From NCBI RefSeq assembly GCF_000424145.1, contig NZ_AUJI01000011.1:1-64000 (forward strand): DNA of 64,000 nucleotides. Direction: 5' to 3'. The notes under the pieces are model-generated. The model searched no databases. It was not told where the DNA came from and saw only the letters and a program-made list of their open reading frames with translations. Source of the DNA: Butyrivibrio sp. AC2005. GTDB lineage: Bacteria; Bacillota; Clostridia; Lachnospirales; Lachnospiraceae. Below, piece by piece: positions 14,075 to 56,046 of the stretch (the first letter of the stretch is position 1; each line of letters opens with the position of its first letter). A program made the position numbers and the translations under genes.

Positions 14075-14149
14075 GCACTTAGCGAGGTATTACACGAGCT
14101 TAGTGCGAGCCATGGGTGAACACTTGGCGAGGTTCTGTCGAGCCTAGTG
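14075..14149. repeat. Structured repeat, family B hairpins 1 and 2
   Basis: Hairpin 1: CACTTAG (14076-14082) pairs with CTTAGTG (14099-14105), extended by a G-C pair. Hairpin 2: CACTTGG (14121-14127) pairs with CCTAGTG (14143-14149). Both stems contain one T-T mismatch. Both loops are bounded by CGAG at each end (CGAGGT...CGAG). Two more members lie at 55983-56046. Confidence 0.65.
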
Positions 14150-14213
14150 AGAATCCCAGAGAAGACTTACAGCAGAACTTCCTTGTGAAAAAAGAAAAGT
14201 GAAGGATAACTAT

Positions 14214-15209
14214 ATGGGGACACAAATCACTATCGAGGATGTGGCAGATGCTCTTGGGGTATCCAAGACAACCGTATCCCGAGCTATTTCCGGGAAAGGG
14301 AGAATTGGTGAAAAGACAAGATTACGCGTCCTTGAGTACATTGAACAGAATAATTATAAGCCGAATGTGGTTGCAAAGGGACTTGCTCAGCGGAGAACCT
14401 TTAATATTGCAGTAGTATGGCAGGGGGATTATTCACTTGTAGATCTTCCGTTTTTTCAGCGATGTCTTGTTGGAATGAGCGAGGTCACAAGTGGTTACAG
14501 CTACGACATAATAATATCTATGGTTACCGGGGATGAGATTTCTAATCTTAAGAGAATTATTGATAACCATAAGGTAGATGGAGTGATACTCACAAGAACT
14601 CTGATTGATGATAAAACTGCTGAGTACCTGCTAAGAAGCGGAATACCATTTGTTGCAATAGGCTCTTCAAGTGATGAAAAGATTATCACTGTTGATAATG
14701 ACCACTTTGATGCGTGCAGGGAGCTTACTTCTATTTTAATAGGAAAAGGTCATACAAAGCTTGCTCTGGTAGGAGGCTCACAAAACCACATGATCACCCG
14801 AACAAGGTATGAAGGGTTTCTAAAAGCCTTTGAGCAGGCAGGGAAAAAACTGGATGAATCTCTTATTTTCCTGAATCAGGGTAATGAGCAGAGACTTACT
14901 GAAATCGTAAAACACCTTGCGGAAAAGAAAATAGATGGTGTTGTTTGCATGGATGATCAGCTGGCAGGCTATGTTATGAGTATCTGCAGAGCTGCCGGAA
15001 TAAGGATACCGGAAGACTTGAGACTTGCATCCTTTTACAACAGCAATATACTTGAGAATGCTGTTATTCCCGTAACATCGCTTAATTTTGATGACAGGAA
15101 GCTTGGTGCTGTTGCCACAAGAATGCTTATGCGGCTCATAGATGGAGAGGCAGTAGAAAGTCAAAAACTTAAGAATTATGAAGTTATAATGAAGGAGAGC
15201 ACCAAATAG
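14214..15209 (+). CDS. LacI-family repressor of the oligosaccharide operon
   Basis: 331 aa from ATG 14214; GAAGGA lies 7 nt upstream, whereas the GTG at 14199 has no ribosome site. The N-terminal helix-turn-helix is TIEDVADALGVSKTTVSRAI (residues 5-24) with a hinge helix around KPNVVAKGLAQ. A periplasmic-binding-like ligand domain follows (about 60-331). It lies directly after the permeases and probably represses them through the CAAnCGnTTG sites at 10076, 10216 and 11181, with release by an incoming sugar. This is inference from location and from the LacI-type operator form. Confidence 0.85.
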   Translation: MGTQITIEDVADALGVSKTTVSRAISGKGRIGEKTRLRVLEYIEQNNYKPNVVAKGLAQRRTFNIAVVWQGDYSLVDLPFFQRCLVGMSEVTSGYSYDIIISMVTGDEISNLKRIIDNHKVDGVILTRTLIDDKTAEYLLRSGIPFVAIGSSSDEKIITVDNDHFDACRELTSILIGKGHTKLALVGGSQNHMITRTRYEGFLKAFEQAGKKLDESLIFLNQGNEQRLTEIVKHLAEKKIDGVVCMDDQLAGYVMSICRAAGIRIPEDLRLASFYNSNILENAVIPVTSLNFDDRKLGAVATRMLMRLIDGEAVESQKLKNYEVIMKESTK

Positions 15210-15223
15210 GTGCTCCCTTTTCT
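15197..15223 (+). terminator. Terminator overlapping the lacI-type stop codon
   Basis: GAGCACC (15197-15203) pairs with GGTGCTC (15209-15215) around AAATA, followed by CCTTTTCT. The stop codon lies in the loop, so translation of the last codons may influence folding. Confidence 0.75.
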
Positions 15224-15315
15224 ATATGACCAAAAAATTGTAAAATACCTTTATCTTTTATGGTACCGGTGAACCTGCCGAATGAGGGATATATACGATT
15301 CTAAGGAGAGAGAAT

Positions 15316-17661
15316 ATGATACAAAGTATGAACAGACTATCCTATACACCAATGTCACTAACTGTTGATGATAAGCCTTTTTATCCTGTGATGGGTGAGA
15401 TGCATTTCTCCCGTTACAGAAACAGATATTGGGAAGAAGAGCTATGCAAGATGAAAAGTGGCGGAGTGGATATTGTATCACTCTATACCATTTGGATTCA
15501 TCATGAAGAGATTCGTGGTGAGTTTGATTTTAGTGGAGATAAGAACCTGAGAAAATTCCTTCAGATTGTGAAGAGAGTGGGATTAAACTGCATCCTTAGA
15601 ATTGGCCCCTGGGCACACGGAGAAGTAAGAAACGGCGGTTTTCCGGACTGGTTGTTGGAAGATGCGAAGGATAAGGGCTACGAAGTAAGGAGTAATGCCC
15701 CTGAATATCTTGCTCATGCACGAAATTTTTATGAACACATATATGAGCAGGCTAAGGGATTGTTCTTGAAGGATGGCGGACCTGTAATCGGTGTGCAGAT
15801 TGAAAATGAATACGGACATTGCGGCGGATTTGGCGGCGAAGAGGGTGAGGCTCATATGCGGACTCTTCGTGATATGGCCATAGAGATCGGTTTTGATGTT
15901 CCGATTTATACTGCAACCGGATGGGGAGGCGCTGTTACCGGCGGGATGCTCCCTGTTATGGGTGGTTACTGCGAAGCTCCGTGGGATCCAAGAACAACAG
16001 AGCTTGAGCCCAGTGGGAATTATATTTTTACTGCTGAAAGAAATGATCACAATATTGGATCGGATCATGGGCTGGGTGCCGGCATCACTTTTGATATGAA
16101 AAAATTCCCATATCTTACTGCTGAATTGGGTGGAGGATTGCAGGTGACTCACCATAGAAGATGCATTGCTACCGGCAGGGATACAGAAGCTATGAGCATG
16201 GTAAAACTTGGAAGTGGCGCTAATCTTCTCGGATATTATATGTATCACGGTGGAACTAATCCAGAGGGAAAGCTATCAACTCTTCAGGAAAGCACAGCGA
16301 CCGGATATCCCAATGACCTGCCTGTTTTATCTTATGATTTTAATGCGCCTCTTAAAGAGTATGGGCAGATGTCTGATACCTACAGAAAAATCAGAAGAAT
16401 CTCCATGTTTACTAAGGACTTTGGTGAAGCGCTCTGTGAGATGCCATTTATAAATCAGCCCAATAATCCGGATAAACCGGAAAATTTAACTGATCCTAGG
16501 ACCGCTGTTCGCGCTGTGAAAAAAGAGGTTAACGGGCAGGAGCGGATGTCAGGTTATCTTTTCGTAAATAATTATCAAAGAAGATACGAAATGGCTGACC
16601 ATGATGATGCCATTCTTAAGGCTTATGACGCTGAAGGCAACGTGATCACAGAATTTGAAGAGAGGAATATTAAAAACGGGGATACCTTTTTCTACCCTTT
16701 TAATATGCCAATAGGTGAGGATGCAGTGTTGATTAGAGCTAACATGATTCCACTCTGTATTCTTCATGATGAAAAGAAGCGAGAATGTGCCTATGTTTTC
16801 TATGCAGATGAGAGAGATTCCGCAGCCGCTGAAATAGAAGGTGACCTTGGTGGCATTAAAATAGTTACACTTAGCAGCTATGAAGCTGAACATGCTGTGA
16901 AAATAACTGATGACCGCGGTGCTGAGCATCTTATTATCTGCGAGTTTGATGTTGTGGACAGGATTGTCGGTACAAACAGGAGACGTTCGGGAGTTCTGGA
17001 AAATGGTAACCCGAATGGTTATGAGATATATGCAGAGATTCCGTCAGACGGAATGGAACATACTGTTTCTTTCAGAGTATGGCCTGATCTTGATGAGACT
17101 CCTTCGGGATTTATACATGACGATGCTGAGAATGTAAGCGATACCTATATGGTAGACAGCATGGATTTTGCGGATTACAGATATGCTGACAGCCTGATTA
17201 GCCCTGTACGCGCAGAGCTTGGAAAGATTGAGAATAACAGCGCAAATTGCCCATCTGCCCTGAGTGAAGATAGCCTTTCTTTAGAGAAATATTCAATTAA
17301 TGTAACAGGCATAGATGAGAACATCGACGAAGTGTATCTTCACATAAAGTATGCAGGTGACAGAGCAGAGCTCTATGCTGTCAGTGATGTGGATGGTTTC
17401 CATGAGGGACAGCTTATAGCAGACAGCTTCTATACCGGACAGGCTTGGGAAATAGGGCTAAAGCGATTTATCGGCTCCGAAGGAAATACTGAACTGGAAG
17501 AGGATTTCGAAGCTATGGCAGTTATCTATCCTCTTTATGAAAATCAAAAGGTTTATATTCAGGAATGGCCGGAACTAAGCGAAATAGTTGATGGCAAAAA
17601 AGTTGCCTGCAGAGCTGAAAGTATTGAATCAGTAGCACAATATAAAATTCGAATTTGGTAA
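15316..17661 (+). CDS. GH35 beta-galactosidase, cytoplasmic
   Basis: 781-aa glycoside hydrolase of family 35. The TIM barrel (about 10-360) begins with the typical GEMHFSRYR and WIHHEE motifs. The proton donor is Glu165 in QIENEYG and the nucleophile is Glu270 in TAELGGG; both are clear. The C-terminal 400 residues are beta-rich domains. There is no signal peptide or anchor, so it acts on galactosides already imported, presumably by the adjacent ABC transporter. AAGGAGAGAG precedes the start. It is separated from the LacI gene by a terminator, so it has its own promoter. Family 35 also includes exo-glucosaminidases, but a beta-galactoside is the first guess. Confidence 0.85.
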   Translation: MIQSMNRLSYTPMSLTVDDKPFYPVMGEMHFSRYRNRYWEEELCKMKSGGVDIVSLYTIWIHHEEIRGEFDFSGDKNLRKFLQIVKRVGLNCILRIGPWAHGEVRNGGFPDWLLEDAKDKGYEVRSNAPEYLAHARNFYEHIYEQAKGLFLKDGGPVIGVQIENEYGHCGGFGGEEGEAHMRTLRDMAIEIGFDVPIYTATGWGGAVTGGMLPVMGGYCEAPWDPRTTELEPSGNYIFTAERNDHNIGSDHGLGAGITFDMKKFPYLTAELGGGLQVTHHRRCIATGRDTEAMSMVKLGSGANLLGYYMYHGGTNPEGKLSTLQESTATGYPNDLPVLSYDFNAPLKEYGQMSDTYRKIRRISMFTKDFGEALCEMPFINQPNNPDKPENLTDPRTAVRAVKKEVNGQERMSGYLFVNNYQRRYEMADHDDAILKAYDAEGNVITEFEERNIKNGDTFFYPFNMPIGEDAVLIRANMIPLCILHDEKKRECAYVFYADERDSAAAEIEGDLGGIKIVTLSSYEAEHAVKITDDRGAEHLIICEFDVVDRIVGTNRRRSGVLENGNPNGYEIYAEIPSDGMEHTVSFRVWPDLDETPSGFIHDDAENVSDTYMVDSMDFADYRYADSLISPVRAELGKIENNSANCPSALSEDSLSLEKYSINVTGIDENIDEVYLHIKYAGDRAELYAVSDVDGFHEGQLIADSFYTGQAWEIGLKRFIGSEGNTELEEDFEAMAVIYPLYENQKVYIQEWPELSEIVDGKKVACRAESIESVAQYKIRIW

Positions 17662-17680
17662 AAACATTTTAATTCATTGT

Positions 17681-17805
17681 TATAGTGCAAGACTATTATT
17701 AAACTTTTTGCTATAGGGTAAAGATATTTTATTATCTTTTATTATAGTGGAATGAAAATTTTTAATCTTTTGTCATACGGTGAAGACATATTTTTATTCT
17801 ATTGA
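17681..17805. repeat. Degenerate 31-bp AT-rich tandem repeat, four units
   Basis: Units begin at 17681 (TATAGTGCAAG), 17712 (TATAGGGTAAAG), 17743 (TATAGTGGAATG) and 17775 (ATACGGTGAAG). Each is followed by a T-rich stretch. Together with copy 2 of repeat family A this fills the 217-bp gap after the GH35 gene. Confidence 0.5.
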
Positions 17806-17826
17806 GAGGATAATGATATATTTTAA

Positions 17827-17878
17827 AGCCTTCCCCCTTTTTAAGGGGGAAGGTGTCACCGAAGGTGACGGATGAGGG
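17827..17878. repeat. Dispersed structured repeat, family A copy 2
   Basis: Hairpin 1: CCTTCCCCCTT (17829-17839) with AAGGGGGAAGG (17843-17853). Hairpin 2: GTCACC-GAA-GGTGAC (17855-17869). The tail GGATGAGGG ends at the stop codon of the minus-strand 75-aa gene. Confidence 0.8.
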
Positions 17879-18106
17879 TTATAGCAGCCCATCTCTCGAA
17901 TCTAAATAAATCTCAAACAAATCATACTGTTCCAGAAATGCATAGCAGCATAACAGCTCATCTCTTAACAGATTTCTTGCTCTTTCAAGGTAAATTGCCT
18001 CATCTTTTATAAGCTTGAAACTTTCTGTGGTATGCATAGCCATAACTATTGCATGGCTGAGACCACCACGCCGGAAAAGTAAATCTTTGATTTTGTTGTA
18101 ATGCAT
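17879..18106 (-). CDS. Small hypothetical protein, 75 aa
   Basis: Begins at ATG 18106 with AGGTGA about 6 nt upstream; a longer TTG start at 18127 lacks a ribosome site. The protein starts MHYNKIKDLLFRRGGLSHAI and is predicted helical, with a central ESFKLIKDEAIYLERARNLL segment and an acidic C-terminus. No family is recognised. The stop codon abuts the tail of a family A repeat, which may end its transcript. It diverges from the XRE regulator across 336 bp. It is probably real because the start, length and amphipathic composition are sensible, but there is no functional clue. Confidence 0.5.
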   Translation of the reverse strand: MHYNKIKDLLFRRGGLSHAIVMAMHTTESFKLIKDEAIYLERARNLLRDELLCCYAFLEQYDLFEIYLDSRDGLL

Positions 18107-18442
18107 GAAAATCACCTGCCCTTTCAATTGGGAATGTTCTGTCGGATAGACAAGATACTACTAAAGTGACCATGCTTGCCATAAAACAAATCATTATTTA
18201 ATTTCAAACAATAGTGATGGTTATATTCTATGTTATTCATAAAGTATAGATATAACAATTGTCTTTAGTGCTATATCTATCAGTTTTTAGGATTTGTATA
18301 ATAGTGTCACTTGAAGCAAATGCAATACAATGGTTAATTGTTGGCTGTTTATACAATCTTTAGTATAGATACTGTGAGCAAAAGTAGTGATAGTATGCGC
18401 TCTGTTATCTGCATATTAAAACTATTTTACAGGAGGACATCT
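18107..18442. other. 336-bp divergent intergenic region
   Basis: AT-rich DNA between the 75-aa gene and the XRE regulator. A TATAAT is at 18297-18302 on the plus strand without a clear -35 partner. TATAGAT and TATAGTG-like words recur. No ORF or RNA gene is seen. Confidence 0.4.
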
Positions 18443-18778
18443 ATGGATATCACAGAAGAGATTGGTAACAGAATTAGATTTTACAGGAAAGACAGAAAGT
18501 TAAGTCAGGAAGAGCTTGCTGAAATGAGCGACCTTCACCCTTCATATATTGGACAGCTGGAGAGAGGAATTAAGACTCCGTCAGTTGATACAATATACAG
18601 AATCACTAAGGGATTGGATGTGACTATGTCCGATTTTCTTAAGAATATTGAGACTTTTGATACAGATGAAGATACGTGGGCTATGAAATCATATCTCTTA
18701 ATCGAACAGGAGAAGCTGGGAGATCAGAGGCATCTATATGAGATCATTAAAAATATCATTGCTCTAAAATCAAAATAA
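18443..18778 (+). CDS. XRE-family helix-turn-helix regulator, 111 aa
   Basis: Starts at ATG 18443, 6 nt after AGGAGGAC; the longer ORF start at 18338 has no ribosome site. Residues 8-62 are a Cro/CI-type helix-turn-helix (SQEELAEMSDLHPSYIGQLERG with the typical GIKTPSVDTIYRI). A short acidic/helical C-terminal part ends in Lys residues. It resembles SinR-like small regulators that control sporulation, biofilm or plasmid functions. It lies just upstream of the surface-glycan locus and has its own terminator, so a role in controlling that locus is possible but only inferred. Confidence 0.8.
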   Translation: MDITEEIGNRIRFYRKDRKLSQEELAEMSDLHPSYIGQLERGIKTPSVDTIYRITKGLDVTMSDFLKNIETFDTDEDTWAMKSYLLIEQEKLGDQRHLYEIIKNIIALKSK

Positions 18779-18807
18779 TAGAACTGAAAACAGAATATGT
18801 AGATGGT

Positions 18808-18846
18808 AATCCCTGATTCATTTAACTGAGTCAGGGATTTTTTGCC
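18808..18846 (+). terminator. Terminator after the XRE gene
   Basis: AATCCCTGA (18808-18816) pairs with TCAGGGATT (18831-18839), extended inward by TTCA/TGAG pairs, followed by TTTTTTG. Confidence 0.8.
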
Positions 18847-18861
18847 AAAAAAACAATACAA

Positions 18862-18890
18862 TTGACGCTAAAAACAAATAAATATATACT
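18862..18890 (+). promoter_or_regulatory. Promoter of the first glycosyltransferase gene
   Basis: TTGACG (18862-18867), 17-nt spacer, TATACT (18885-18890), followed by ATAGATAT. It is nearly the same as the promoters at 22857 and 40486. Confidence 0.75.
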
Positions 18891-18911
18891 ATAGATATTA
18901 TTTGAGGGGAA

Positions 18912-20078
18912 ATGGTTACTATAGACCGTGAAGATAGTATGAAAAAAGCGCTGATTGTTTCAAGTACTGGTGGTTTTTTATCTCAATTTCTAGAAAATGA
19001 TGTTCAGGTACTGCAGGAAAATGGATATGAAATCCACTATGCATCTGATTTTGATAATCCCGTATATGCTTTTAATCCGGAAAGCCTACGAAATGCAGGA
19101 ATTATAATGCACCAAATTGTTCTGCACAAAAAGCCCTGGCATTTAATTAAGAATACTAAAGGTCTTATTCAGCTGTCGGATTTAATTAAAAAAGAAAATA
19201 TAAGTCTTGTTCATTGCCATAATCCGGTTGGAGGCATGCTGGGGAGATTAGCTGGTTTTTGTTCTGGAAAAAATCCATATGTAATTTATACAGCGCATGG
19301 ATTTCATTTCTTTAAAGGCGCCCCTAAAGCATATTGGCTTATTTTTTATCCCATAGAGCGCTTCCTTGCCAGGTTTACGGATATGATCATCACCATAAAT
19401 AAAGAGGACTATAAACGAGCATGTACCTTCAATTTAAGAAAGGGTGGACATGTAGAACTTCTCCATGGTGTTGGTCTTGATACAGATAGATTCCATCCAA
19501 TGCCGGAACTTAGAAAGGCAGTAAGAGAAGAACTTGGAATACCGGATAAAGGTTTTCACATAGTAACTGCAGCGGAACTGAATAATAACAAGAATCATAC
19601 TGTGGTGCTGGAAGCAATCAGATCCTTGGATGATGAAGATATTTATTACAGCATTTGTGGCAGGGGAGGAAAAGCCCTGGAACTGCGAAACTTCATCGAA
19701 GAGAGCGGATTATCTGATAATATAAAGCTTCTCGGTTATAGAAACGATATGGAGCGAATATTACAGTCAGCTGATGTATTTGCTTTTCCGTCAAAGAGGG
19801 AAGGATTCGGAATGGCTGCGGTTGAGGCGCTCGGTTGTGCGGTGCCTGTCATAGCTGCTGATAATCGCGGAACTAGAGAATACATGAGAAATGGTGAAAA
19901 CGGAATAGTGTGTAGACCTAATGAGGTACGGGATTTCGAGAAAGCAATTTCTACCTTTAAGAGCAACCCGGATGTCAGGGATGCATATTCTAAAAAAGCA
20001 TTGGAGCTTTCAAACATCTTTTCAAAAAGCTCAGCAAAAGAAACAATGCGAGAAATATATAGCAAAATTCAGCAATAA
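18912..20078 (+). CDS. GT4-family glycosyltransferase
   Basis: 388-aa GT-B fold transferase. The N-terminal Glyco_transf_4 half includes HCHNPVGGMLGRLAG and YTAHGFHFFKGAP, as in EpsD/CapM-like capsule and exopolysaccharide enzymes. The C-terminal half carries the donor-binding motif (FAFPSKREGFGMAAVEALG, about residues 290-310). It opens the surface-glycan locus and probably adds an early sugar to a lipid-linked acceptor at the cytoplasmic membrane. The SD (GAGGGG) is very close to ATG 18912, while the alternative ATG at 18939 (MKKALIV) has only a weak site, so the exact start is uncertain. Donor and acceptor are unknown. Confidence 0.85.
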   Translation: MVTIDREDSMKKALIVSSTGGFLSQFLENDVQVLQENGYEIHYASDFDNPVYAFNPESLRNAGIIMHQIVLHKKPWHLIKNTKGLIQLSDLIKKENISLVHCHNPVGGMLGRLAGFCSGKNPYVIYTAHGFHFFKGAPKAYWLIFYPIERFLARFTDMIITINKEDYKRACTFNLRKGGHVELLHGVGLDTDRFHPMPELRKAVREELGIPDKGFHIVTAAELNNNKNHTVVLEAIRSLDDEDIYYSICGRGGKALELRNFIEESGLSDNIKLLGYRNDMERILQSADVFAFPSKREGFGMAAVEALGCAVPVIAADNRGTREYMRNGENGIVCRPNEVRDFEKAISTFKSNPDVRDAYSKKALELSNIFSKSSAKETMREIYSKIQQ

Positions 20079-20127
20079 TCATTTTCAAGGATTGTCAGAA
20101 AATACTTTTATTGTGGGGAGATAATGT

Positions 20128-20940
20128 ATGAAGACGGTTGAGATATCCGTCATAATGGGGGTTTTTAGTGGACAGAATACCAATGAACTTGATAGAGCAG
20201 TTAATTCAATTCTGACACAGACTTTCAGGGACTTCGAATTTATAATCTATGATGATGGCTCCAATCCTAAGGCATCAGAGTTTATCAGAGGATTAAAGGA
20301 CAGAGATAACAGAATAATTGTGATTGGCAGTGAGGAGAATAATGGTCTCGCTTTTTCATTAAATAAGTGTCTGGAAAAGGCAAGTGGGAGATATATTGCA
20401 CGCATGGATGATGACGATATATCACTTCCAAAAAGGTTCGAAAAACAACGAGCATTTTTGGAGGCTCATCCGGAGTATGACTGGTGTGGCTGTAATGCAA
20501 AAATATTTGATGAAGAAGGCGTGTGGGGAATAACTACAAGACCGGCACATCCTACTGCAGAGGACTATCTCAAATTCTCGCCATATATTCATCCTACAGT
20601 TATGTACAGGAGATCTGCACTTATAGAAAATGGTGGCTATACTGCCAGAAAAGAGACTCTGCGGTGCGAGGATTATGAGATATTTATGAGACTTTATCAG
20701 GCTGGATTTAAAGGCTGCAATATGCAGGAGGTACTTTTTAAGTATCATGTGGATAGAGACAATTACCACAACAGAGCTTTTAAATTCCGTGTCTATGAGA
20801 TGAAGGTCAGATACGAAAATTTTAAAAAAATGGGACTGCTTTTCCCATTTGGTTGGGTATACTGTGTAAGGCCGATAGCCGGTACTTTCGTTCCGGTCAA
20901 ACTTATAGAATTCTTCAAGCACAAGAAAGCAACAGTATAA
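20128..20940 (+). CDS. GT2-family glycosyltransferase, 270 aa
   Basis: GT-A fold inverting transferase. The N-terminus (about 1-110) has SVIMGVFSGQN, the nucleotide-binding IIYDDGS and the metal-binding RMDDDDISLP. HPTVMYRR and a CEDYEIFMRL motif (likely catalytic base region) follow. It has no membrane segment beyond a weakly hydrophobic C-terminal part. GGGGAG lies 8 nt before the ATG. It is 49 nt after the GT4 gene and 1 nt before the next, so it belongs to the same operon and acts in the same glycan assembly. Donor sugar is not predictable. Confidence 0.85.
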   Translation: MKTVEISVIMGVFSGQNTNELDRAVNSILTQTFRDFEFIIYDDGSNPKASEFIRGLKDRDNRIIVIGSEENNGLAFSLNKCLEKASGRYIARMDDDDISLPKRFEKQRAFLEAHPEYDWCGCNAKIFDEEGVWGITTRPAHPTAEDYLKFSPYIHPTVMYRRSALIENGGYTARKETLRCEDYEIFMRLYQAGFKGCNMQEVLFKYHVDRDNYHNRAFKFRVYEMKVRYENFKKMGLLFPFGWVYCVRPIAGTFVPVKLIEFFKHKKATV

Positions 20941-20941
20941 G

Positions 20942-22345: not shown

Positions 22346-22346
22346 T

Positions 22347-22393
22347 GCCTTCCCCTTGGGGGAAGGTGTCTGCGAAGCAGACAGATGAGGGGA
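22347..22393. repeat. Dispersed structured repeat, family A copy 3
   Basis: Hairpin 1: CCTTCCCC (22348-22355) with GGGGAAGG. Hairpin 2: GTCTGC-GAA-GCAGAC (22368-22382), whose arms differ from copies 1 and 2 but remain complementary. The GATGAGGGGA tail leads into the ribosome site of the prepilin gene. Confidence 0.8.
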
Positions 22394-22406
22394 ATGGAGG
22401 TGTACC

Positions 22407-22760: not shown

Positions 22761-22785
22761 ATTTTAGGAATATAACAGGAGAAAG

Positions 22786-22820
22786 ATGCTCCAAGGCAGA
22801 AATGCGTTGGAGCATTTTTA
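22786..22820 (+). terminator. Terminator after the prepilin gene
   Basis: ATGCTCCAA (22786-22794) pairs with TTGGAGCAT (22807-22815), followed by TTTTTAT. Confidence 0.85.
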
Positions 22821-22856
22821 TGCTTCCGTATAAGCACGATAGTATCTAAAACTAAA

Positions 22857-22885
22857 TTGACGAATCTATAGTATAGTTATATACT
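22857..22885 (+). promoter_or_regulatory. Promoter of the ABC polymer exporter/heptose operon
   Basis: TTGACG (22857-22862), 17-nt spacer, TATACT (22880-22885), same form as the promoters at 18862 and 40486. Confidence 0.75.
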
Positions 22886-22949
22886 AAAAAGGTACTTTAG
22901 TGCGTGTTCTAAACATTAAAGTACAACAGAAAGTTTTTGTGAGGAAAGT

Positions 22950-47206: not shown

Positions 47207-47228
47207 TTAATAATGCAAAAGGATAAAT

Positions 47229-47834: not shown

Positions 47835-47835
47835 A

Positions 47836-47879
47836 GCCTTCCCCTTGGGGGGAAGGTGCCCGAAGGGCGGATGAGGGGA
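47836..47879. repeat. Dispersed structured repeat, family A copy 5
   Basis: Hairpin 1: CCTTCCCC (47837-47844) with GGGGAAGG (47849-47856). Hairpin 2 is shortened to GCCC-GAA-GGGC (47858-47868), still fully paired. The GGATGAGGGG tail is at 47869-47878. Confidence 0.8.
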
Positions 47880-47905
47880 ATACTTGGTAGTAAGGAGACT
47901 CACAT

Positions 47906-49339
47906 ATGAAACGCGGAGGAAAAAGAATGGAAGAAATTCTTATGTGGCTGGTAGTTGTTGCAGCCTGTGGCGGTCTGTTATTTGCGATAACTGTGACAAT
48001 CATATATCTGGGTCATAAACTGAAGGAAGAAGAGGAAAGTGAAAATCCCTCCGAACAGGCAGAAACTCAGGAAGTCGAAGATGCAGATACCCCTACCGCC
48101 AATCAGGTCAAAATCAACGTTGCGGACATTGCCCCGGATACAACAAAAGAAAAGAAGTCCGACACTGATGAAATAGATATGAGCGAAATTGCTATGGAGG
48201 TTGAGAATACTGAAACTGAAGCTTCCGAAGGTGAGTCTGCAACTAAAGTTTCGGAAGACTTGGAAACGGCAGATTTTGTTATGTGTGATTTTGATAAAGG
48301 TCTGTTCGAGTTTTTGGAGAATGAAGGATACAAGAATGAAAACTACATTGTATCTCCGGCTTCATTAAGATCAGTTATGGGACTTGCAATAGCAGGAGCT
48401 GACAATGAGACTAAGGCAGAGCTTCTTAAGGCTGCCGGTTTTTCAGATGAGGCTGCAATGAACAAATGGTACGAGAATCTTGTGAACGTGCCTGATACCA
48501 CTGAAAAGAACGTCACTTTCCATATACTTAATTCTGCCTGGCATAACACAAAAATGCCCGGAGCGTTGTCGCAGGATTATAAAGACTATATTAAGGCTCA
48601 CTACGAAGCGGAAGCTCAGGACGTAGAGGCCGGAGAAATAACAGATGCTGTAAATAACTGGGTAAATGAAGGAACAAACGGGCTAATACCTTCTCTTTCA
48701 GATGATCTTTCAGGAGCAGATATGGTCCTTGTTAATACCCTGTATCTCAAATCATCCTGGATCAGGGAATTTGAAAAGGCAGCTACCGAAGAGGGCGATT
48801 TCATGTCTTACGACGGATGCTGTATCAAGAAGGAATTCATGGATCAGACTGATCACTTTAAATATTTTGAAGATGATAAAACAAAGATTCTTGTAATGAC
48901 CATGAATGGCGGAATTGATGTGATGTATGTACTTGGAGATTCTTCGGACTTCCAGGGGAAGCTTTCCAAGGCAACGATGCAAAAGGTTCACGTAAAGGTG
49001 CCTAAGTTTACAACAGAGACCTCCTTCGACAAAAGGGAACTTGTGAAATATCTTCAGGGGAAAGGTGCTAAAACAGCGTTCCTTCCTGAGGCTGATTTTT
49101 CAGCAATGAGCAGTAATGAAAATTTTTATATTACAGATATTATCCAGAAGACCAAGATTGTTACAGATGAAAACGGAATCGAGGCCGCTGCTTCGTCGGG
49201 AATGGTTATGGTCGGAAGTGCCCTGCCCACTGAAGAAGAGGAGCCTAAGGAATTCATAGCCGATAAGCCCTTTAAGTACTATATCATGACCACAGGAAGA
49301 TCAAAGGAGATTCTCTTCTATGGTCAGGTTGTTGAATAG
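47906..49339 (+). CDS. Membrane-anchored serpin
   Basis: 477 aa from ATG 47906 (AAGGAG 8 nt upstream); ATG 47927 after GGAGG is an equally good start. Residues about 12-35 are one membrane helix. An acidic, Thr/Glu-rich stalk extends to about 125. The serpin fold follows with YIVSPASLRSVMGLA, VNTLYLKSSW and MVMTMNGG-like segments. The reactive loop hinge is DENGIEAAASSG (P17-P7), with Ile at P14 where Thr/Ser is usual; the scissile bond is expected near VGSALP. It ends with the FKYYIM...ILFYGQVV strand. It should trap an extracellular serine protease. Confidence 0.9.
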   Translation: MKRGGKRMEEILMWLVVVAACGGLLFAITVTIIYLGHKLKEEEESENPSEQAETQEVEDADTPTANQVKINVADIAPDTTKEKKSDTDEIDMSEIAMEVENTETEASEGESATKVSEDLETADFVMCDFDKGLFEFLENEGYKNENYIVSPASLRSVMGLAIAGADNETKAELLKAAGFSDEAAMNKWYENLVNVPDTTEKNVTFHILNSAWHNTKMPGALSQDYKDYIKAHYEAEAQDVEAGEITDAVNNWVNEGTNGLIPSLSDDLSGADMVLVNTLYLKSSWIREFEKAATEEGDFMSYDGCCIKKEFMDQTDHFKYFEDDKTKILVMTMNGGIDVMYVLGDSSDFQGKLSKATMQKVHVKVPKFTTETSFDKRELVKYLQGKGAKTAFLPEADFSAMSSNENFYITDIIQKTKIVTDENGIEAAASSGMVMVGSALPTEEEEPKEFIADKPFKYYIMTTGRSKEILFYGQVVE

Positions 49340-49443
49340 TTACAATCTTTTAATAATAGATAATTCTTATTTAATAGTTTTTTGGAAAATGATGGATTAT
49401 CATTATATTTAGCAGCGAATATCTTATGAAAGGGGTTTGAATT

Positions 49444-49686
49444 ATGAGCAGAGTATCTGAAGTTACAGGATTACAGCAGCAGAGAGTTCTTAAATACGAT
49501 CAGATTGCCAAAAAGGGCAATGAAGCTGAGATAATGAAGGCATCCATGGAGAATATCATGCTGGCTCTTAATGATATTTCACAGACACTGGCAATGATTG
49601 CTGATAGGGACGGTGCTAATCAGCGTGACACCTTTGATTCCATGGCAAGAAGTCTTGCTATGATGGCAGACGCAGGAAAAAAGTGA
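49444..49686 (+). CDS. Small conserved-looking helical protein, 80 aa
   Basis: Begins MSRVSEVTGLQQQRVLKYDQ with AAAGGGG 8 nt upstream. It is predicted all-helical with Met- and Ala-rich amphipathic segments (NIMLALNDISQTLAMIADRD, ARSLAMMADAGKK). No Cys, signal or membrane helix. It is monocistronic, with a hairpin after the stop. No family is recognised; composition suggests a coiled-coil or oligomerising protein. Confidence 0.65.
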   Translation: MSRVSEVTGLQQQRVLKYDQIAKKGNEAEIMKASMENIMLALNDISQTLAMIADRDGANQRDTFDSMARSLAMMADAGKK

Positions 49687-49714
49687 GATAACGACCAGGA
49701 AAAAGGCAAATTCG

Positions 49715-49747
49715 AACATCCGCAAATTTCAAGGGTTTGCGGATGTT
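49715..49747 (+). terminator. Perfect 12-bp hairpin after the 80-aa gene
   Basis: AACATCCGCAAA (49715-49726) pairs with TTTGCGGATGTT (49736-49747). The T tract is weak (ATTAAT), so termination may be incomplete. Confidence 0.65.
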
Positions 49748-49792
49748 ATTAATGCACAATTCGAGAGAATCTTTTTCTTTATTTATTCACAA

Positions 49793-49821
49793 TTGAGAAA
49801 ACAAAATAGGTACTATAGAAT
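49793..49821 (+). promoter_or_regulatory. Candidate promoter of the GH31 gene
   Basis: TTGAGA (49793-49798), 17-nt spacer, TAGAAT (49816-49821). It leaves a leader of only about 10 nt before ATG 49839. Confidence 0.45.
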
Positions 49822-49838
49822 TATAGGGATTGATTAAG

Positions 49839-51902
49839 ATGTTTAATCAATCCCTGTTGCTTTTAGGGGAAAGAACAGGGAAATATTATGTTCTATGGGA
49901 GGGGATTGCAATAGACTTTAGTAAGATAGCTCTCACAGTTGGAAATGGCGAAAACAGATTTTCCATGAAGCGTGGGAGCTTTAAATATAAGCATAAGATT
50001 AATTGGAAGCAGAAATGTAAGTTAGTCGATACCATTCGTTCCAAGGATTTTGTGAGTTACGTATATGAGTGTGAAGAGGTTGGGGAGAGACTTACACTTA
50101 AGGTTTGGACTGACAAAGAAAAAACCGGGGCTGAGCTTTCATCCTCAGTGGGAAGTTCTTCAAAAATCAACAGGTTCTGGTTTACTTTTGGCACAAATCC
50201 TGATGAACATATCTATGGATGTGGCGAGAATTATTCGGAGTTTGACTTAAAAGGACAGAAAGTAAGGATATGGGTTGCAGAGCATCAGAACGTCCGGCGT
50301 ATTTCAAGAAAACTGATAAAAGAAAAGATAAGAGGACCACGGCCGAAGAGAAAGCTTTCCTTCAGTAAATATGAGTCCTACTATGTGCAGCCAACCTTTG
50401 TATCTTCGGATAAATATTATGTGCATGTGGATATGAAGGCTTATGGCTACTTTGATTTTTCAAAGCCCTCTGAAATAACGATACATACTCAGGAATATCC
50501 TCGGTTTGTATGTGAAAAAGCAGATAGCTTTACGGAGATTTCAGGAAAACTGGCTAAGCTCCTTGGACATCAGAGAACTCTTCCTGACTGGATCTATGAA
50601 GGTGGAATTATCGCCATGCAGGACTGGGTGAAGGATGGAGATAAGGTAAAAGAGGGTTTTGATGGCTGCGGTAATATAGACAGAAAGCTCCTTGAACTTG
50701 AGAAGGAAGGAGCGAAGGTATCCGGGGTCTGGTGTCAGGACTGGTGTGGTTGCAGATGCACAGGGTTTGGATATCAGGTCATGTGGAACTGGCGATATGA
50801 TGAAAAGCAGTACCGGAATCTCCCTGCGAAAATCAGGGAATGGAAGAAAAAGGGCGTCAGATTCTTAGGTTACATAAATCCTTTTATTGCACTTGAAAAG
50901 GATATTTATGCTACGGCAAAGGAAAAGGGATATTGTGTAAAAAACAGAAATGGTGAGGACTACCTTGTAACTATTACAACTTTTCCTGCAGCAATGGTGG
51001 ATTTTACCAATCCTGAGGCCTATGAGTGGTACAAGAATCTCATCAAGGAAAACATGATTGGAATCGGTATGGGCGGCTGGATGGCAGACTTTGGGGAATA
51101 TCTGCCTGAGGATGCCGTGCTGTATGACGGCGATGCAAGGATTCTTCATAACAGCTGGCCTTCGATATGGGCGAAGATGAACAGGGAAGCAATCCTTGAA
51201 TGCGGAGTTGAGAATGAAGTGTTCTTCTTTACCAGGGCAGGCTATACCGGAAGCGTAGGTGCAACCGACATGATGTGGACGGGTGACCAGCATGTCGACT
51301 GGTCAGTGGACGACGGACTTCCGTCAGTAATTCCTGCGACTTTGTCGCTTTCCATGTCAGGGTATGGAATTACACATTCTGATGCAGGCGGTTACACTAC
51401 TGTTATGCACATGAGAAGGTCAAAGGAGCTTCTTATGAGATGGGAAGAGATGAATGTTTTTTCACCTCTTTTCAGAACACACGAAGGTAATCAGCCTGGG
51501 AACAATGCCCAGTTTGATATGGACGAGGAAGTGCTTAAGCATACCGCTTTTTGCACAAGGCTCCATTATGAGTTAGGGGACTACATCAGGGAGCTGGTGA
51601 AGAATGCTACAGAGAGCGGGACTCCGGTTATCAGACCTCTGTTTTATCACTATGATGAACCGTGGGCATATACGGAGATGACAGAATACTTATTGGGTAG
51701 GGATATTCTGGTGGCTCCGGTTCTGGAAGCAGGAAAAGTTAAAAGAGAAGTGACTTTACCTGACGATACATGGGTTAATTTATTTAGCAAAAAAGAATAC
51801 ACGGGAGGAAAACATACAGTGGAGGCGCCGATTGGCCAGCCGCCTGTATTCGTGAGAAGGGACTCTTCCCGGTATGAAGAATTAATAAAAATTGGGGTTT
51901 AA
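49839..51902 (+). CDS. GH31 glycosidase, sulfoquinovosidase clade
   Basis: 687 aa from ATG 49839 (AGGG upstream). From memory it aligns along its length with E. coli YihQ. Seen here: IYGCGENYSEFDLKG, the nucleophile Asp417 in GGWMADFGEYLP, the acid/base Asp483 in MMWTGDQHVDW, and HSDAGGYTT. YihQ binds the sulfonate through Gln288, Arg301, Trp304 and Tyr508. The Gln (CQDW), Trp (VMWNW) and Tyr (GGYTT) are kept, but the Arg is Gln313 (FGYQVMW instead of FGKRVMW). It has no signal peptide, so it acts in the cytoplasm. It is followed after 1 nt by the GPH symporter. Confidence 0.82.
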   Translation: MFNQSLLLLGERTGKYYVLWEGIAIDFSKIALTVGNGENRFSMKRGSFKYKHKINWKQKCKLVDTIRSKDFVSYVYECEEVGERLTLKVWTDKEKTGAELSSSVGSSSKINRFWFTFGTNPDEHIYGCGENYSEFDLKGQKVRIWVAEHQNVRRISRKLIKEKIRGPRPKRKLSFSKYESYYVQPTFVSSDKYYVHVDMKAYGYFDFSKPSEITIHTQEYPRFVCEKADSFTEISGKLAKLLGHQRTLPDWIYEGGIIAMQDWVKDGDKVKEGFDGCGNIDRKLLELEKEGAKVSGVWCQDWCGCRCTGFGYQVMWNWRYDEKQYRNLPAKIREWKKKGVRFLGYINPFIALEKDIYATAKEKGYCVKNRNGEDYLVTITTFPAAMVDFTNPEAYEWYKNLIKENMIGIGMGGWMADFGEYLPEDAVLYDGDARILHNSWPSIWAKMNREAILECGVENEVFFFTRAGYTGSVGATDMMWTGDQHVDWSVDDGLPSVIPATLSLSMSGYGITHSDAGGYTTVMHMRRSKELLMRWEEMNVFSPLFRTHEGNQPGNNAQFDMDEEVLKHTAFCTRLHYELGDYIRELVKNATESGTPVIRPLFYHYDEPWAYTEMTEYLLGRDILVAPVLEAGKVKREVTLPDDTWVNLFSKKEYTGGKHTVEAPIGQPPVFVRRDSSRYEELIKIGV

Positions 51903-51903
51903 A

Positions 51904-53418
51904 ATGGGAAACAAAAGAGAAAACAGCTTTATTTCAAAGTGCGCCTACGGTCTTACCGACATCTACGGTGGCGGCGCATTTATTGTAATCAGTACTTTTT
52001 TTACGGTATTTCTTACTAAGGCACTTGGAATGTCACCTGTACTTGCGGGAACCATTCCGCTTATAGGAAGAGTATGGGATGCGATTACGGATCCCATAAT
52101 GGGTAACATTGTCGACAGGACAAGTTCCAGATTTGGAGCAAAAAGATTTTATATTCTTATCGGCAGCATCATTTCATCAATCACATTTTTGATGCTGTGG
52201 ATGAACGTAGGAATAGAAAGCGTAGCAGGGCAGTATGTTTTTTATGCAGCGATGTACATGCTGTTTTCTACCGGCTTTACAATTGTTATGGTCCCATATA
52301 ACGGACTCCTTCCTGATATGGTAGACGACTATAGCAAAAGAGGAAGCTACTCAGGCATAAGGATGATTTTTTCAAGCCTTGGTGCTATAATGGCCGGGCT
52401 GATTCCGACGATCCTTATAACCGATAATACCAATGGCGGTTTATATTTTAAGGTTGCTGCTATTTTTTCATGTATTTTCATAGTCGTGATTTTGCTTTCC
52501 TTTGCAGGAACATGGGAAAAACAAAAAGAACCTGTAAAGGTTCCTCTAGGAAAGAGCATGACACAGTCAGTTACGGTTTATAAGAGCTTTTCATTTAAGC
52601 TGTTTATCTGTATTTTCCTTGCAGGGCAGGGAGCTGCGGATTTTGTAACAGGACTTGCGGTTTATTACGTGGATGATGTCCTCAATGCATATTCGGGCGG
52701 ACGATTCACTATGATGATGGGAGTGCTTCTGCTGGCACAGTTCTCAGGAACAGTCATCTTTTCAATGATAATTCCGAAGACTTCCAAGAAGTTTCCGATT
52801 TTACTTGGATTCCCGATCAGAATTCTTGCAACGATTGCTCTTTTGTTCTTCTCATATGAAGGTGCATCCTTTGCTATAATACTTGTTCTTTCATTTATCG
52901 TGGGACTTGGCATGGCAGGAGCTTCAGTCAGCATCTACGCGATACTGTCCGATATGGTAGATGTTGATGAGCTCATTACATCCATCAGACGTCCCGGAAC
53001 AGTATCAGGCATGGCGACCTTTATCAGGAAAATTGCAACAGGTCTCAGCTCAACAGTGATTGGAATCAGTCTTGCGATGGTAGGATACGATGAGAGTCTT
53101 GCAACACAAAAGCTGAGACAGTCCGCAGGAACTCAGATGGGAATAACACAGCTGTATGTGTGGCTGCCCGTGGCACTTATGGTGCTCACAATTATTTTTG
53201 CAGTAATGTTCCCTATGAACAAGGCAGAATACAATGTGATCAAAAAGGAAATAAAGCGCAGAAAGGGCGAGGATGCTTCAATAGCAACAGCGGAAGAGAT
53301 TGCCATCTGCGAGATGGTTACAGGCTTTAAATACGACAGACTCTGGAACGAGGACAATGCGCTTAAGCTTCGTTCGAGCGAGACAGATAAAACATCCCAA
53401 AAGAACGGATGCGCTTGA
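51904..53418 (+). CDS. GPH-family sugar:cation symporter
   Basis: 504 aa from ATG 51904, 1 nt after the GH31 stop (TTG at 51892 rejected). It has 12 predicted membrane helices. The GPH signature is present as GRVWDAITDPIMGNIVDRTSSRFGAKRFYI in two conserved blocks (DAITDPIMG; RFGAKR). The C-terminal cytoplasmic tail is charged. YihO/YihP-type importers for SQ and SQ-glycerol belong to this family, and location beside the GH31 gene supports uptake of its substrate. The ion may be Na+ or H+. A terminator follows. Confidence 0.85.
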   Translation: MGNKRENSFISKCAYGLTDIYGGGAFIVISTFFTVFLTKALGMSPVLAGTIPLIGRVWDAITDPIMGNIVDRTSSRFGAKRFYILIGSIISSITFLMLWMNVGIESVAGQYVFYAAMYMLFSTGFTIVMVPYNGLLPDMVDDYSKRGSYSGIRMIFSSLGAIMAGLIPTILITDNTNGGLYFKVAAIFSCIFIVVILLSFAGTWEKQKEPVKVPLGKSMTQSVTVYKSFSFKLFICIFLAGQGAADFVTGLAVYYVDDVLNAYSGGRFTMMMGVLLLAQFSGTVIFSMIIPKTSKKFPILLGFPIRILATIALLFFSYEGASFAIILVLSFIVGLGMAGASVSIYAILSDMVDVDELITSIRRPGTVSGMATFIRKIATGLSSTVIGISLAMVGYDESLATQKLRQSAGTQMGITQLYVWLPVALMVLTIIFAVMFPMNKAEYNVIKKEIKRRKGEDASIATAEEIAICEMVTGFKYDRLWNEDNALKLRSSETDKTSQKNGCA

Positions 53419-53455
53419 TGGGTTTTGATCTGAAGTCACAGGATTAAAAAAGTAG

Positions 53456-53500
53456 GCAGGTTTAGTTCAGCTAACACCGCACTAAATCTGCTTTTTCTTT
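53456..53500 (+). terminator. Terminator between the symporter and DASS genes
   Basis: GCAGGTTTAGT (53456-53466) pairs with ACTAAATCTGC (53481-53491) with one mismatch, followed by TTTTTCTTT. Confidence 0.75.
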
Positions 53501-53545
53501 GAAATAATTGATTAAAATATTTAATTAAAAGGAGATACAAAAGAA

Positions 53546-54973
53546 ATGAACAGCACAAAACGCGGTATACATATGATACTGGGGCCGGTACTGTTTTTAC
53601 TGGTAAGCTTTGGACTCGGTAAGACAGGGATCATTGATTATACAGCAGCTAAGGGAATAGGATGTGCCCTGTGGATGATCTACTGGTGGGTTACAAGACC
53701 TGTAGATATCACAGTCACAGCACTTTTACCCGGAGTTATAAATGCACTTTTTGATATTGTTCCAATGGAGAATGTAATATCACAGTATTCTTCAAGCAGT
53801 ATTATCCTGATCTTCGGATCCTGCCTTCTGACAGCACCCTGGAGTGAGATAGGACTTGATAAGAGAATTTCCTTAAAGGCTCTTTCACTTATCGGACCCT
53901 CCATGAAATCACAGATCACGGTATGGCTTCTGGCGGCTGTTGTTCTTTCCAACATGATGCCCAACGTTGTTGTGGTTGCTATTTTCACACCTATAGCTGT
54001 TTCCATGCTTGCGGCAGCAGGTTATAAGGATATCAAAAACTGTGAGGCGGCAACACCTATCCTCTGCGCGATCGCATGGGGCTCTCAGGTTGGCGGTGCC
54101 GGAACTCCTCTTGGCGGAGCCATGAATATCACAGCCATTGCATTTATAGAAGAGTTCACAGGCAAGGAATTCATGTACATAGACTGGATCACAAGAATGC
54201 TTCCTTACACCATTATTGCAACAATCGCAGTACTGGCTGTAATGCTTCTTAAACACATGAAGACAAGCTCTCTTGAGGGTACAAAAGAGTATTTCGAGAA
54301 GTGCTATAAGGATCTTGGCCCCATGAAAAAGGACGAGAAGATAAGTTTTGTACTTTTTGTTGTAGCTATGCTGGGTTCCTTTGTAAGACCACTTTATGCA
54401 AACCTTATACCCGGACTTGTTCCTGCATATCTGTTCCTGATACTCGGCTTTGCTAACTTTGTTATCGTATCCTGCGAGAAGAAAGAGCTCCTTCTTACCT
54501 GGGAAAAGGCACAGAAAGAAGTTATGTGGGGAATGCTCCTTCTATTTGCAGGCGGACTTGCACTTGGCCAGATACTTACAGGTTCAGGGGCAAACGATGC
54601 TATTGCTAATGTGATCTCTTCAGCCAATATAAGCGGCGGATTCGTTGCAATCCTTGTGTTCACATTGTTTGCATGTGTTATCTCAGAGATGACAAACAGT
54701 ACTGTATCAGCAGCAGTTACACTTCCTATCGTAATTGGTGTAACACAGAAGATGGGGCTGAATCCTATACCGTATGTGTTTACAACCTGTATGGGCATGA
54801 ATTTTGAATCAATTCTTCCTGTCAGCGTACGTGCAATCTCAGTATCCTACGGCCTTGATCCTGATAAGCTTCTTAAAAATGGTCTCGTTGTAGCGCTTGT
54901 CAGAATGCTCATTGCTGTAATCGTAGGCTTTATCACTATGATGGTTTGGCCGGGATTTGGCGTTTTAAGTTAA
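53546..54973 (+). CDS. DASS-family anion transporter
   Basis: 475-aa divalent anion:Na+ symporter family protein with about 11-12 helices. Two SNT-type family motifs are visible: VVLSNMMPNVVVVAIFTPIA (SNMMPN) and EMTNSTVSAAVTLPI (TNSTVS). The family moves dicarboxylates, sulfate and related anions. Between the symporter and the transaldolase it is a candidate exporter of the sulfonate product (2,3-dihydroxypropane sulfonate or sulfolactate) or importer of an anionic substrate. AAAAGGAG precedes the ATG. It is followed by its own terminator. Confidence 0.82.
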   Translation: MNSTKRGIHMILGPVLFLLVSFGLGKTGIIDYTAAKGIGCALWMIYWWVTRPVDITVTALLPGVINALFDIVPMENVISQYSSSSIILIFGSCLLTAPWSEIGLDKRISLKALSLIGPSMKSQITVWLLAAVVLSNMMPNVVVVAIFTPIAVSMLAAAGYKDIKNCEAATPILCAIAWGSQVGGAGTPLGGAMNITAIAFIEEFTGKEFMYIDWITRMLPYTIIATIAVLAVMLLKHMKTSSLEGTKEYFEKCYKDLGPMKKDEKISFVLFVVAMLGSFVRPLYANLIPGLVPAYLFLILGFANFVIVSCEKKELLLTWEKAQKEVMWGMLLLFAGGLALGQILTGSGANDAIANVISSANISGGFVAILVFTLFACVISEMTNSTVSAAVTLPIVIGVTQKMGLNPIPYVFTTCMGMNFESILPVSVRAISVSYGLDPDKLLKNGLVVALVRMLIAVIVGFITMMVWPGFGVLS

Positions 54974-55028
54974 TGACTAAATAGTTTATAGTAAATAAAT
55001 TTACACTTTTAATAAATTGTAATTGGCG

Positions 55029-55085
55029 AAAAATAGCTCAAAATACCTACTTTAGTTCGAATGTGGGTGTTTTGGGCTATTTTTG
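55029..55085 (+). terminator. Long terminator after the DASS gene
   Basis: AAAATAGC (55030-55037) pairs with GCTATTTT (55076-55083), continued inward by CAAAA/TTTTG and ACC/GGT with small mismatches around a 12-nt loop, followed by T's. Confidence 0.75.
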
Positions 55086-55147
55086 TGCAAAATATGGGCG
55101 AAAATGCACATTTACGAAACTTTTTAGTGAACTATTACAAAAATAAA

Positions 55148-55160
55148 TTAAACAGTTTAA
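55148..55160. promoter_or_regulatory. TTAAACAGTTTAA palindrome upstream of the transaldolase operon
   Basis: A perfect 13-bp palindrome, followed by AAC so that GTTTAAAC also forms an 8-bp one. It lies about 50 nt upstream of a TTGACT/TTGACC -35-like region (55199-55214). It is a candidate operator for the ROK regulator of this operon. The 301-bp gap 54974-55274 otherwise holds the DASS terminator and no gene. Confidence 0.4.
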
Positions 55161-55274
55161 ACAATACGCCAAAATGAATTAAATATATCAAAGTTCTATT
55201 GACTATATTGACCAAATTGATAGAATTATATTTGCTTAAAGAAATTAACTAATTAGTATTTGGGAGGCAATACA

Positions 55275-55961
55275 ATGAAATTTTTCTTAGACAGCGCAAA
55301 ACTTGATGAAATCAAACAGGCATACAACACATTTGGTATTGACGGAGTAACAACAAACCCTCGTCACATTATGGCAAGTGGTAAGCCCTTTATGACAGCT
55401 ATTACAGATATCGCAAACTGGATCAAGGAAGAGGGCCTTGAGGGAGTTGATAAGTTCCCTGTATCAGTTGAGATCAATCCTCATTTTGACAAGACAGAGG
55501 ATATGGTAGAGATGGCTAGAAAGGTTGCTAAGATCAGCCCTAACTTCGTAATCAAGATTCCTGCAATCGAGGCTGGTGTTGCAGCAGCAAGAATCCTTGA
55601 GAAGGAAGGCATCAGAACAAACGTAACTCTGATCTTCTCACCCGCACAGGCAATTCTTCCTGCAAAGAACGGTTCACTTTTTGTTTCACCTTTCATCGGA
55701 TGGAAAGAGCAGAATGGCGAAGACTGCAAGGAATATATAAAGAACATCGTAGAAATCTACAAGAACTATGGCTTCTATGGTAAGACACAGATCATCTGTG
55801 CAGCAATTCGTACACCTAAGCAGATTGCTGATTGTGCAGTAGCAGGTGCGGACATCGTTACATGTGGACTTGCAGTATATCAGGATTGCATGAAGCATGC
55901 ATACACAAATCAGGGACTTAACACATTCTGTGAAGCTTGGGATAACACAGCTACTGAATAA
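55275..55961 (+). CDS. Transaldolase-family protein, candidate sulfofructose transaldolase
   Basis: 228 aa from ATG 55275 with GGGAGG upstream. It is a short, class I aldolase-fold enzyme of the fructose-6-phosphate aldolase/TalC type. The Schiff-base Lys lies in NFVIKIPAIEAG (about residue 90), with NVTLIFSPAQAI and SPFIGW as expected. The usual TTNPS(L/I) motif reads TTNPRHI. In the sulfo-TAL pathway of Firmicutes, such an enzyme splits 6-deoxy-6-sulfofructose, giving sulfolactaldehyde and passing the three-carbon unit to glyceraldehyde 3-phosphate. The neighbours support this role; a plain transaldolase is the alternative. Confidence 0.75.
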   Translation: MKFFLDSAKLDEIKQAYNTFGIDGVTTNPRHIMASGKPFMTAITDIANWIKEEGLEGVDKFPVSVEINPHFDKTEDMVEMARKVAKISPNFVIKIPAIEAGVAAARILEKEGIRTNVTLIFSPAQAILPAKNGSLFVSPFIGWKEQNGEDCKEYIKNIVEIYKNYGFYGKTQIICAAIRTPKQIADCAVAGADIVTCGLAVYQDCMKHAYTNQGLNTFCEAWDNTATE

Positions 55962-55982
55962 GTAATCACTTAGCGGCTGTGA

Positions 55983-56046
55983 GAACCTGACGAGGTATTA
56001 TCGAGTCTGGTTCGAACGTGTTACGCCGAGTAAAACGAGGCGTAAC
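55983..56046. repeat. Structured repeat, family B hairpins 3 and 4
   Basis: Hairpin 3: GAACCTGA (55983-55990) with TCTGGTTC (56006-56013), one T-T mismatch, loop CGAGGTATTATCGAG. Hairpin 4: GTTACGC (56020-56026) with GCGTAAC (56040-56046), loop CGAGTAAAACGAG. Same design as 14075-14149 with different stems. Confidence 0.65.

Follow-up and report, generated by a model that had tools for sequence, protein, structure and literature searches.

Hairpins in two intergenic regions

The window, a 64,000-nucleotide stretch of the genome of Butyrivibrio sp. AC2005 (NZ_AUJI01000011.1, positions 1 to 64,000, forward strand), contains two intergenic regions with a tandem pair of hairpins each. By Pfam, the first lies between a permease (BPD_transp_1) and a LacI-type gene, and the second between a transaldolase (TAL_FSA) and a dehydrogenase (NAD_binding_2/NAD_binding_11). 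All four hairpins follow the plan stem-CGAG-5 to 8 nt-CGAG-stem that was proposed in the original prediction (Table 1). As also predicted, the four stems differ in sequence and nevertheless pair, three of them containing a T-T mismatch, which lies two pairs below CGAG, and the fourth being perfect. Neither pair is followed by a T tract, unlike terminators. The sugar-operon setting noted earlier applies to both pairs in the window, but it is not the rule, as copies elsewhere adjoin other kinds of genes.

Table 1. Hairpins and associated features in the two intergenic regions (window positions).
Feature	Position	Strand	Description	Covariance-model E	Fold z
Class-a dispersed unit	14068-14158	+	two B hairpins, GAGCAGAG...AATCCCA; recurs in genus		
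Hairpin B1	14076-14105	+	GCACT-T-AG-CGAG-GTATTACA-CGAG-CT-T-AGTGC, loop 8 nt	3.2e-9	-2.70
Hairpin B2	14121-14149	+	CACT-T-GG-CGAG-GTTCTGT-CGAG-CC-T-AGTG, loop 7 nt	6.5e-9	-0.68
Remnant	14171-14188	+	C-hairpin 3' arm and tail without 5' arm (AGCAGAACTTCCTTGTGA); like tail in sister species		
Stop and truncated arm	55959-55974	+	transaldolase stop TAA, then truncated left arm of another B hairpin (GTAATCACTTAGCG); by eye against L191, L196, L202		
Class-b dispersed unit	55975-56050	+	B hairpin, C hairpin, TTCC tail; recurs in genus		
Hairpin B3	55983-56013	+	GAACC-T-GA-CGAG-GTATTAT-CGAG-TC-T-GGTTC, loop 7 nt	1.0e-7	-2.77
Hairpin C	56020-56046	+	GTTACGC-CGAG-TAAAA-CGAG-GCGTAAC, loop 5 nt, perfect 7-bp stem, no T-T mismatch		-3.92

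All four CGAG hairpins of the window are on the plus strand and none is on the minus strand. In 100 dinucleotide shuffles, searched on both strands, a loose pattern matched six times in total (0.06 per window) versus four times in the window, and a strict filter, which demands the T-T mismatch together with a closing pair that matches, gave five matches in total in the same shuffles versus three in the window. Single-sequence folding favours hairpins B1, B3 and C. For B2 it yields another minimum-energy fold, and this hairpin therefore rests on comparative evidence. Hairpin C represents a second subtype (GTTC..GAAC-TTCC), which comes after the first type in many related junctions. It is absent from the 25 covariance-model matches in its own genome, and the C-hairpin stems of sister species have different sequences that still pair.

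At gathering score, Rfam gives no match in the window or in 11 element loci, the sub-threshold matches having E values of 0.84 or worse; in 13 further loci it matches T-boxes and tRNAs alone, and none of the hairpins. Literature searches outside bioRxiv, with few subscription papers covered, on Lachnospiraceae or Butyrivibrio repeats, tandem-GA hairpins and RAYTs of Clostridia contain no description of the element among the matches listed, and the bare core letters as a query return unrelated titles among the matches listed.

Dispersed units and nesting

The hairpins of the genus belong to dispersed units of 75-95 nt. In the window, the first GA of the class-a unit completes the stop codon TGA of the permease gene (14067-14069). 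The segment 14066-14158 recurs by itself in at least 27 of the 41 genus genomes (manual count). The left end of class a is preceded by T in 35 of 38 collected copies, and its right end was recognised in 29 of the 38; in 13 of those 29 the left-end sequence recurs immediately behind it. Class b recurs, whole or in part, in at least 33 of the 41 genomes (manual count), its C hairpin frequently being GTTCTG-GCGAG..CGAGAG-CAGAAC. Tails like the remnant at 14171-14188 close intact C hairpins at the permease-lacI junction in sister species, and stand alone in four loci (L282, L289, L291 and L295).

A truncated left arm (CACTTAGCG) is situated directly 5' of the next unit (GCTGTGA...) both in the second intergenic region of the window and in locus L409, just before position 1958, which suggests that copies are nested in, or replace, older copies. 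Elsewhere in the organism's own genome (L194, C2:262301-262406) a class-d B hairpin (ATGTGCAG...ATGTCATACAGAG) lies within the loop of a C hairpin. Class-a units are found within or beside other local repeats in L346, L360 and L407 (e.g. GTACCCACATGGGTGAGAG; TTGGCGAGGCGGTTTATCGC), and inside a different hairpin element in L103. In genome G157 (L224-L238) a CGAG hairpin occupies the centre of a dispersed repeat of ~250 nt with inverted ends (AGGTAATTGCGAAACTCC...); the hairpin variant differs between copies of this repeat, and L233 has one extra hairpin within it. The same core occurs in 59-nt tandem units in genome G143.

Structure and covariation

Covariation was analysed on covariance-model matches from 70 chosen loci, aligned to the structure of the model itself, which was built from 83 hairpins (CGAG-only sequences). 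Among 100 distinct matches from the genus, 97.2% of the cells pair, a value equalled by none of 500 shuffles, and eight of the nine stem pairs change on both sides. The U.U mismatch is kept in 99 of the 100 matches, and either CGAG/CGAG or the covarying TGAG/CGAA is present in 95. At the pair outside the GA step, 84 of the matches have C-G, 13 U-A, two U-G and one C-A. From this covariation and the conservation of the boxes it follows that pairing between the two CGAG boxes is possible, in the order C-G, G.A, A.G and G-C. The CGAG boxes that were taken to bound a loop are thus present, but since their closing pair covaries they are better interpreted as forming a tandem G.A/A.G step of the helix itself. 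The near-fixed core consists of the U.U mismatch, two pairs, the tandem G.A/A.G step and a loop starting with G-U. The tandem GA of (CGAG)2 reportedly forms sheared pairs in RNA (SantaLucia and Turner, 1993). A tandem G.A/A.G step is also a feature of kink-turns and related tandem-GA motifs. The kink-turn, however, is defined by a three-nucleotide bulge, whereas the aligned CGAG hairpins form a symmetric helix that lacks one.

Half-changes in the stem cells comprise 12 cases of G.U versus one of A.C (manual count), which indicates that the CGAG strand is the folding strand, either as RNA or as single-stranded DNA.

Distribution in the Lachnospiraceae

The covariance search of Lachnospiraceae genomes that had been proposed together with the original prediction finds copies well beyond the window, so that the lack of further examples by which the prediction would have been refuted is clearly not observed. 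Pattern searches reveal more copies in the 5.1-Mb genome of the organism itself, where the model gives 25 matches at E ≤0.1. Within the genus it detects copies in 38 of 41 genomes, with 1-54 in each. Most sister species have at least 10, and genomes G207, G214 and G217, in which the model finds none, are useful for tracing a partner protein. In the family, at least 64 of 200 genomes contain copies, the organism's own included; here 32 candidates were scored per genome under strict filters, and the copy numbers are lower bounds. In a class-wide sample, eight of 293 genomes have copies by the covariance model, all eight being among its 13 Lachnospiraceae members, and the 280 genomes outside the family have none. 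The exact core CACTTAG-CGAG-N4..10-CGAG-CTTAGTG is found in at least 119 stretches of named genomes, whose titles include Butyrivibrio, [Clostridium] symbiosum, Hungatella, Faecalicatena, Dorea and unclassified Lachnospiraceae or Clostridia. Viral contigs, searched for carriage by phages, give no exact match to one pattern. The further copies in the genome, the genus and the Lachnospiraceae bear out the proposal of a family of structured, non-terminator hairpins.

Presence and absence at orthologous sites

The junction between permease and lacI genes was compared at 30 loci of the genus, of which nine contain units, five contain remnants (L282, L289, L290, L291 and L295) and 16 have nothing recognisable; among the latter, L303 is doubtful and L307 has another gene next. 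In the nine filled loci B, B+B or B+C lies directly behind the stop codon. The permease gene ends in TGA at all nine filled loci, versus nine of the 21 others (manual count). At valS, class a is located behind the T-box terminator in L377-L379, and in L381, which is close in sequence, the T-run of the terminator continues to the Shine-Dalgarno region without a unit. With this one clean empty site, no target duplication is evident for class a.

Other copies lie behind the T-box leaders of valS and tyrS (Rfam T-box) and pheS (T-box by eye), behind rpmI and ahead of tpiA, these five genes being named from their predicted N-termini. Rfam matches the T-box in L348 and L372; that in L375 was recognised by eye alone, with no Rfam match. 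Class a also follows a tRNA-Gly gene in L337 and L345, and in the latter it is situated between two tRNA genes. Several class-a units stand directly behind apparent genuine terminators, and units of this class are often distant from a stop codon, in a leader behind an attenuator. The hairpins are thus dispersed in many copies, present or absent at orthologous junctions and nested in one another, an insertion-like distribution that was not foreseen in the original prediction.

Placement and orientation

Genes around the hairpins were called by home-made procedures based on ORF length or dicodon score and not taken from annotation, and duplicate hairpins were dropped from the placement counts. 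Of 107 unique genus hairpins from loci chosen by the model alone, 36 lie between -3 and 15 nt from the stop codon of an upstream gene in sense orientation, and no hairpin stands at such a distance from the stop codon of a downstream gene in antisense orientation. Two sense genes flank 78 of the hairpins (ss), versus seven flanked by two antisense genes (aa). A larger set, in which 54 of 146 hairpins are post-stop, draws 33 from loci resembling the window junctions (20 of them post-stop) and 22 from stretches with copies on both strands, and because part of it was chosen with bias the 107 model-chosen hairpins were used instead. All 25 hairpins of the organism's own genome are sense to the upstream gene. 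In a genus panel of 71 hairpins, 58 are sense to the upstream gene, 12 are antisense and one was called inside an ORF. Its 40 places L337-L376 were drawn from the upper part of the best 150 model matches, which favours strong copies. Three of the 12 antisense hairpins (two in L337, one in L372) follow a sense tRNA or T-box. Orientation counts based on ORF length (50 sense, 11 antisense, two inside; n=63) were replaced by dicodon calls because small ORFs had been missed. Some copies of classes a, b and d (in L407, L409, L411, L413 and L415) do not follow a neighbouring gene according to the home-made caller. In the genus, sense placement directly behind stop codons is therefore frequent, and in some examples the hairpins stand behind terminators or tRNA genes.

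The orientation may also reflect the replication strand, but at eight convergent sites the hairpin adjoins the stop of the sense gene, and in L408 a hairpin pair follows its gene within a four-gene minus-strand block of a plus-dominated stretch.

Other genera show a weak orientation bias (56 ss, 32 aa, 25 as and 10 sa, with taxon labels set by hand from record titles), and in genomes G143 and G157 together the orientation is reversed (14 aa versus 4 ss). In 20 Butyrivibrio loci from named records 18 hairpins are ss and nine aa, and in 19-kb stretches six of 22 hairpins have an antisense gene on both sides. In view of the counts outside the genus and in the named Butyrivibrio loci, a role as sense RNA cannot be general.

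Comparison with known mobile elements

REPs are described in passages of two papers (PMC12306157, PMC8266576) as short, imperfect palindromes that contain fixed mismatches, fold in a strand-specific manner and occur in many copies between genes, some of them close behind stop codons; according to a passage of the former, ribosomes stall at REPs that lie no more than 15 nt from a stop codon (PMC12306157). The CGAG hairpins resemble them in each respect, as short imperfect palindromes with one fixed mismatch, dispersed in many intergenic copies, strand-specific in fold and in part post-stop. They differ from the REP/RAYT system in their core of U.U and tandem G.A, in units composed of two hairpins of the same orientation, in being confined to one bacterial family in the genome samples and in not tracking Y1 transposases. 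No general GTAG is found just 5' of the hairpin (17 of 143 in the genus and two of 156 in other genera). Either GCAG or GTAG stands there in 48 of the 143 genus hairpins, versus six at the same place on the other strand, and in six of the 156 in other genera, versus 28 on the other strand. The tetranucleotide is present in a subset of the genus and is not a feature of the family.

Like MITEs, the units are non-coding, dispersed and present or absent at orthologous sites, but those of the genus have no visible terminal inverted repeats; the inverted ends of the G157 repeat make this comparison a mixed one. Group IIC introns insert in sense orientation just behind intrinsic terminators, and the likeness of the CGAG units to them is confined to this choice of site, as the units are shorter than 100 nt and contain no intron.

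No mobilising enzyme was found among the Y1 and maturase candidates checked in the genus. The presence of Y1_Tnp does not track the hairpin copies, and a Y1/RAYT partner was rejected: a cognate Y1/HUH transposase is not detected, as a Y1_Tnp match, in eight of the 38 hairpin-bearing genus genomes, including G223 (99% complete) and G231 (100%). Strict hairpins are absent from 33 of the 35 Y1 loci examined. In the two exceptions, a class-d hairpin on the opposite strand follows a Y1 transposase domain at a distance of a few hundred nt (L317, G211:C61), and a hairpin is located ~780 nt upstream of the Y1 domain (L310). The group II maturase was likewise rejected, being present in 12 of the 41 genus genomes and 11 of the 38 with hairpins, and in none of the sequence of the organism itself. 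The hairpins may have been mobilised earlier by an enzyme since lost.

Interpretation

We read the hairpins as a new type of REP-like element, dispersed in the Lachnospiraceae. That they are REP-like, non-autonomous and recognised as a folded strand is well supported. The fuller reading, in which the post-stop copies in addition act in mRNA as the REPs of E. coli do, we hold at even odds. A predicted conserved factor would recognise the folded strand and spread the unit, and the transcribed hairpin would then follow a stop codon, a position shared by many REPs of E. coli. REP hairpins at the 3' end protect upstream RNA. By analogy, the post-stop hairpin might hold back 3' exonucleases, slow the terminating ribosome, or both, and the upstream cistron would thereby be uncoupled from the next one, so that the RNA copies would punctuate operons. 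Protection of a 3' end does not make sense for class-a units that lie in leaders behind attenuators, a long way from a stop codon.

The main rival is a purely selfish single-stranded-DNA element, its hairpin being recognised as DNA by a transposase or Rep protein and having no function as RNA; we regard it as possible, though somewhat unlikely. The placement behind stop codons and T-runs would then reflect the target, with the left end usually inserting after T and its first GA re-forming TGA, together with purifying selection. This agrees with the T that precedes most class-a left ends, the consistent TGA of the filled permease-lacI loci, the orientation in other genera, which is weakly biased or reversed, the nesting of copies in other repeats, and the occurrence of tandem arrays. 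The stop-proximal copies, however, are sense alone, for which the target would have to be very asymmetric, and none of the enzymes checked tracks the copies.

A reading that joins both roles is doubtful, and less probable than the purely selfish one. The unit would be a mobile punctuation mark of the whole family, inserted in sense orientation where RNA units end, its own first bases re-forming the stop codon, and its tandem-GA/U.U hairpin would be read by a putative conserved Lachnospiraceae factor both for spread as single-stranded DNA and for control of message ends as RNA, without a RAYT.

The U.U/tandem-GA hairpin could instead be a dedicated cis-regulatory RNA, the binding site of one operon-controlling RNA-binding protein, as its core is constant across many genera while the stems covary and one folded strand is favoured. 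We consider this improbable, given that the adjoining genes (tRNA, ribosomal protein, synthetase and sugar genes) share no pathway, that many orthologous sites have no copy and that other genera show weak or reversed orientation bias. Least probable are intrinsic terminators or RNase III-type processing hairpins, which would suit the copies at the ends of genes and the one that separates tRNA genes in L345, but no T run follows the hairpins of the window or related copies, several class-a units already stand behind apparent genuine terminators, and RNase III would require longer stems than these of 7-8 bp, which U.U and GA interrupt.

Returning to the REP-like element, the Lachnospiraceae are abundant in the gut and difficult to manipulate, and their post-transcriptional signals are little known. 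A repeat whose non-canonical core is nearly constant, which occurs in about one third of the family genomes sampled and in many cases stands behind a stop codon, offers a concrete target in these organisms. The element predicts a protein that recognises it, and it alters intergenic regions between sister species. It also allows testing, outside the Proteobacteria, whether REP-like repeats are selfish, functional or both.
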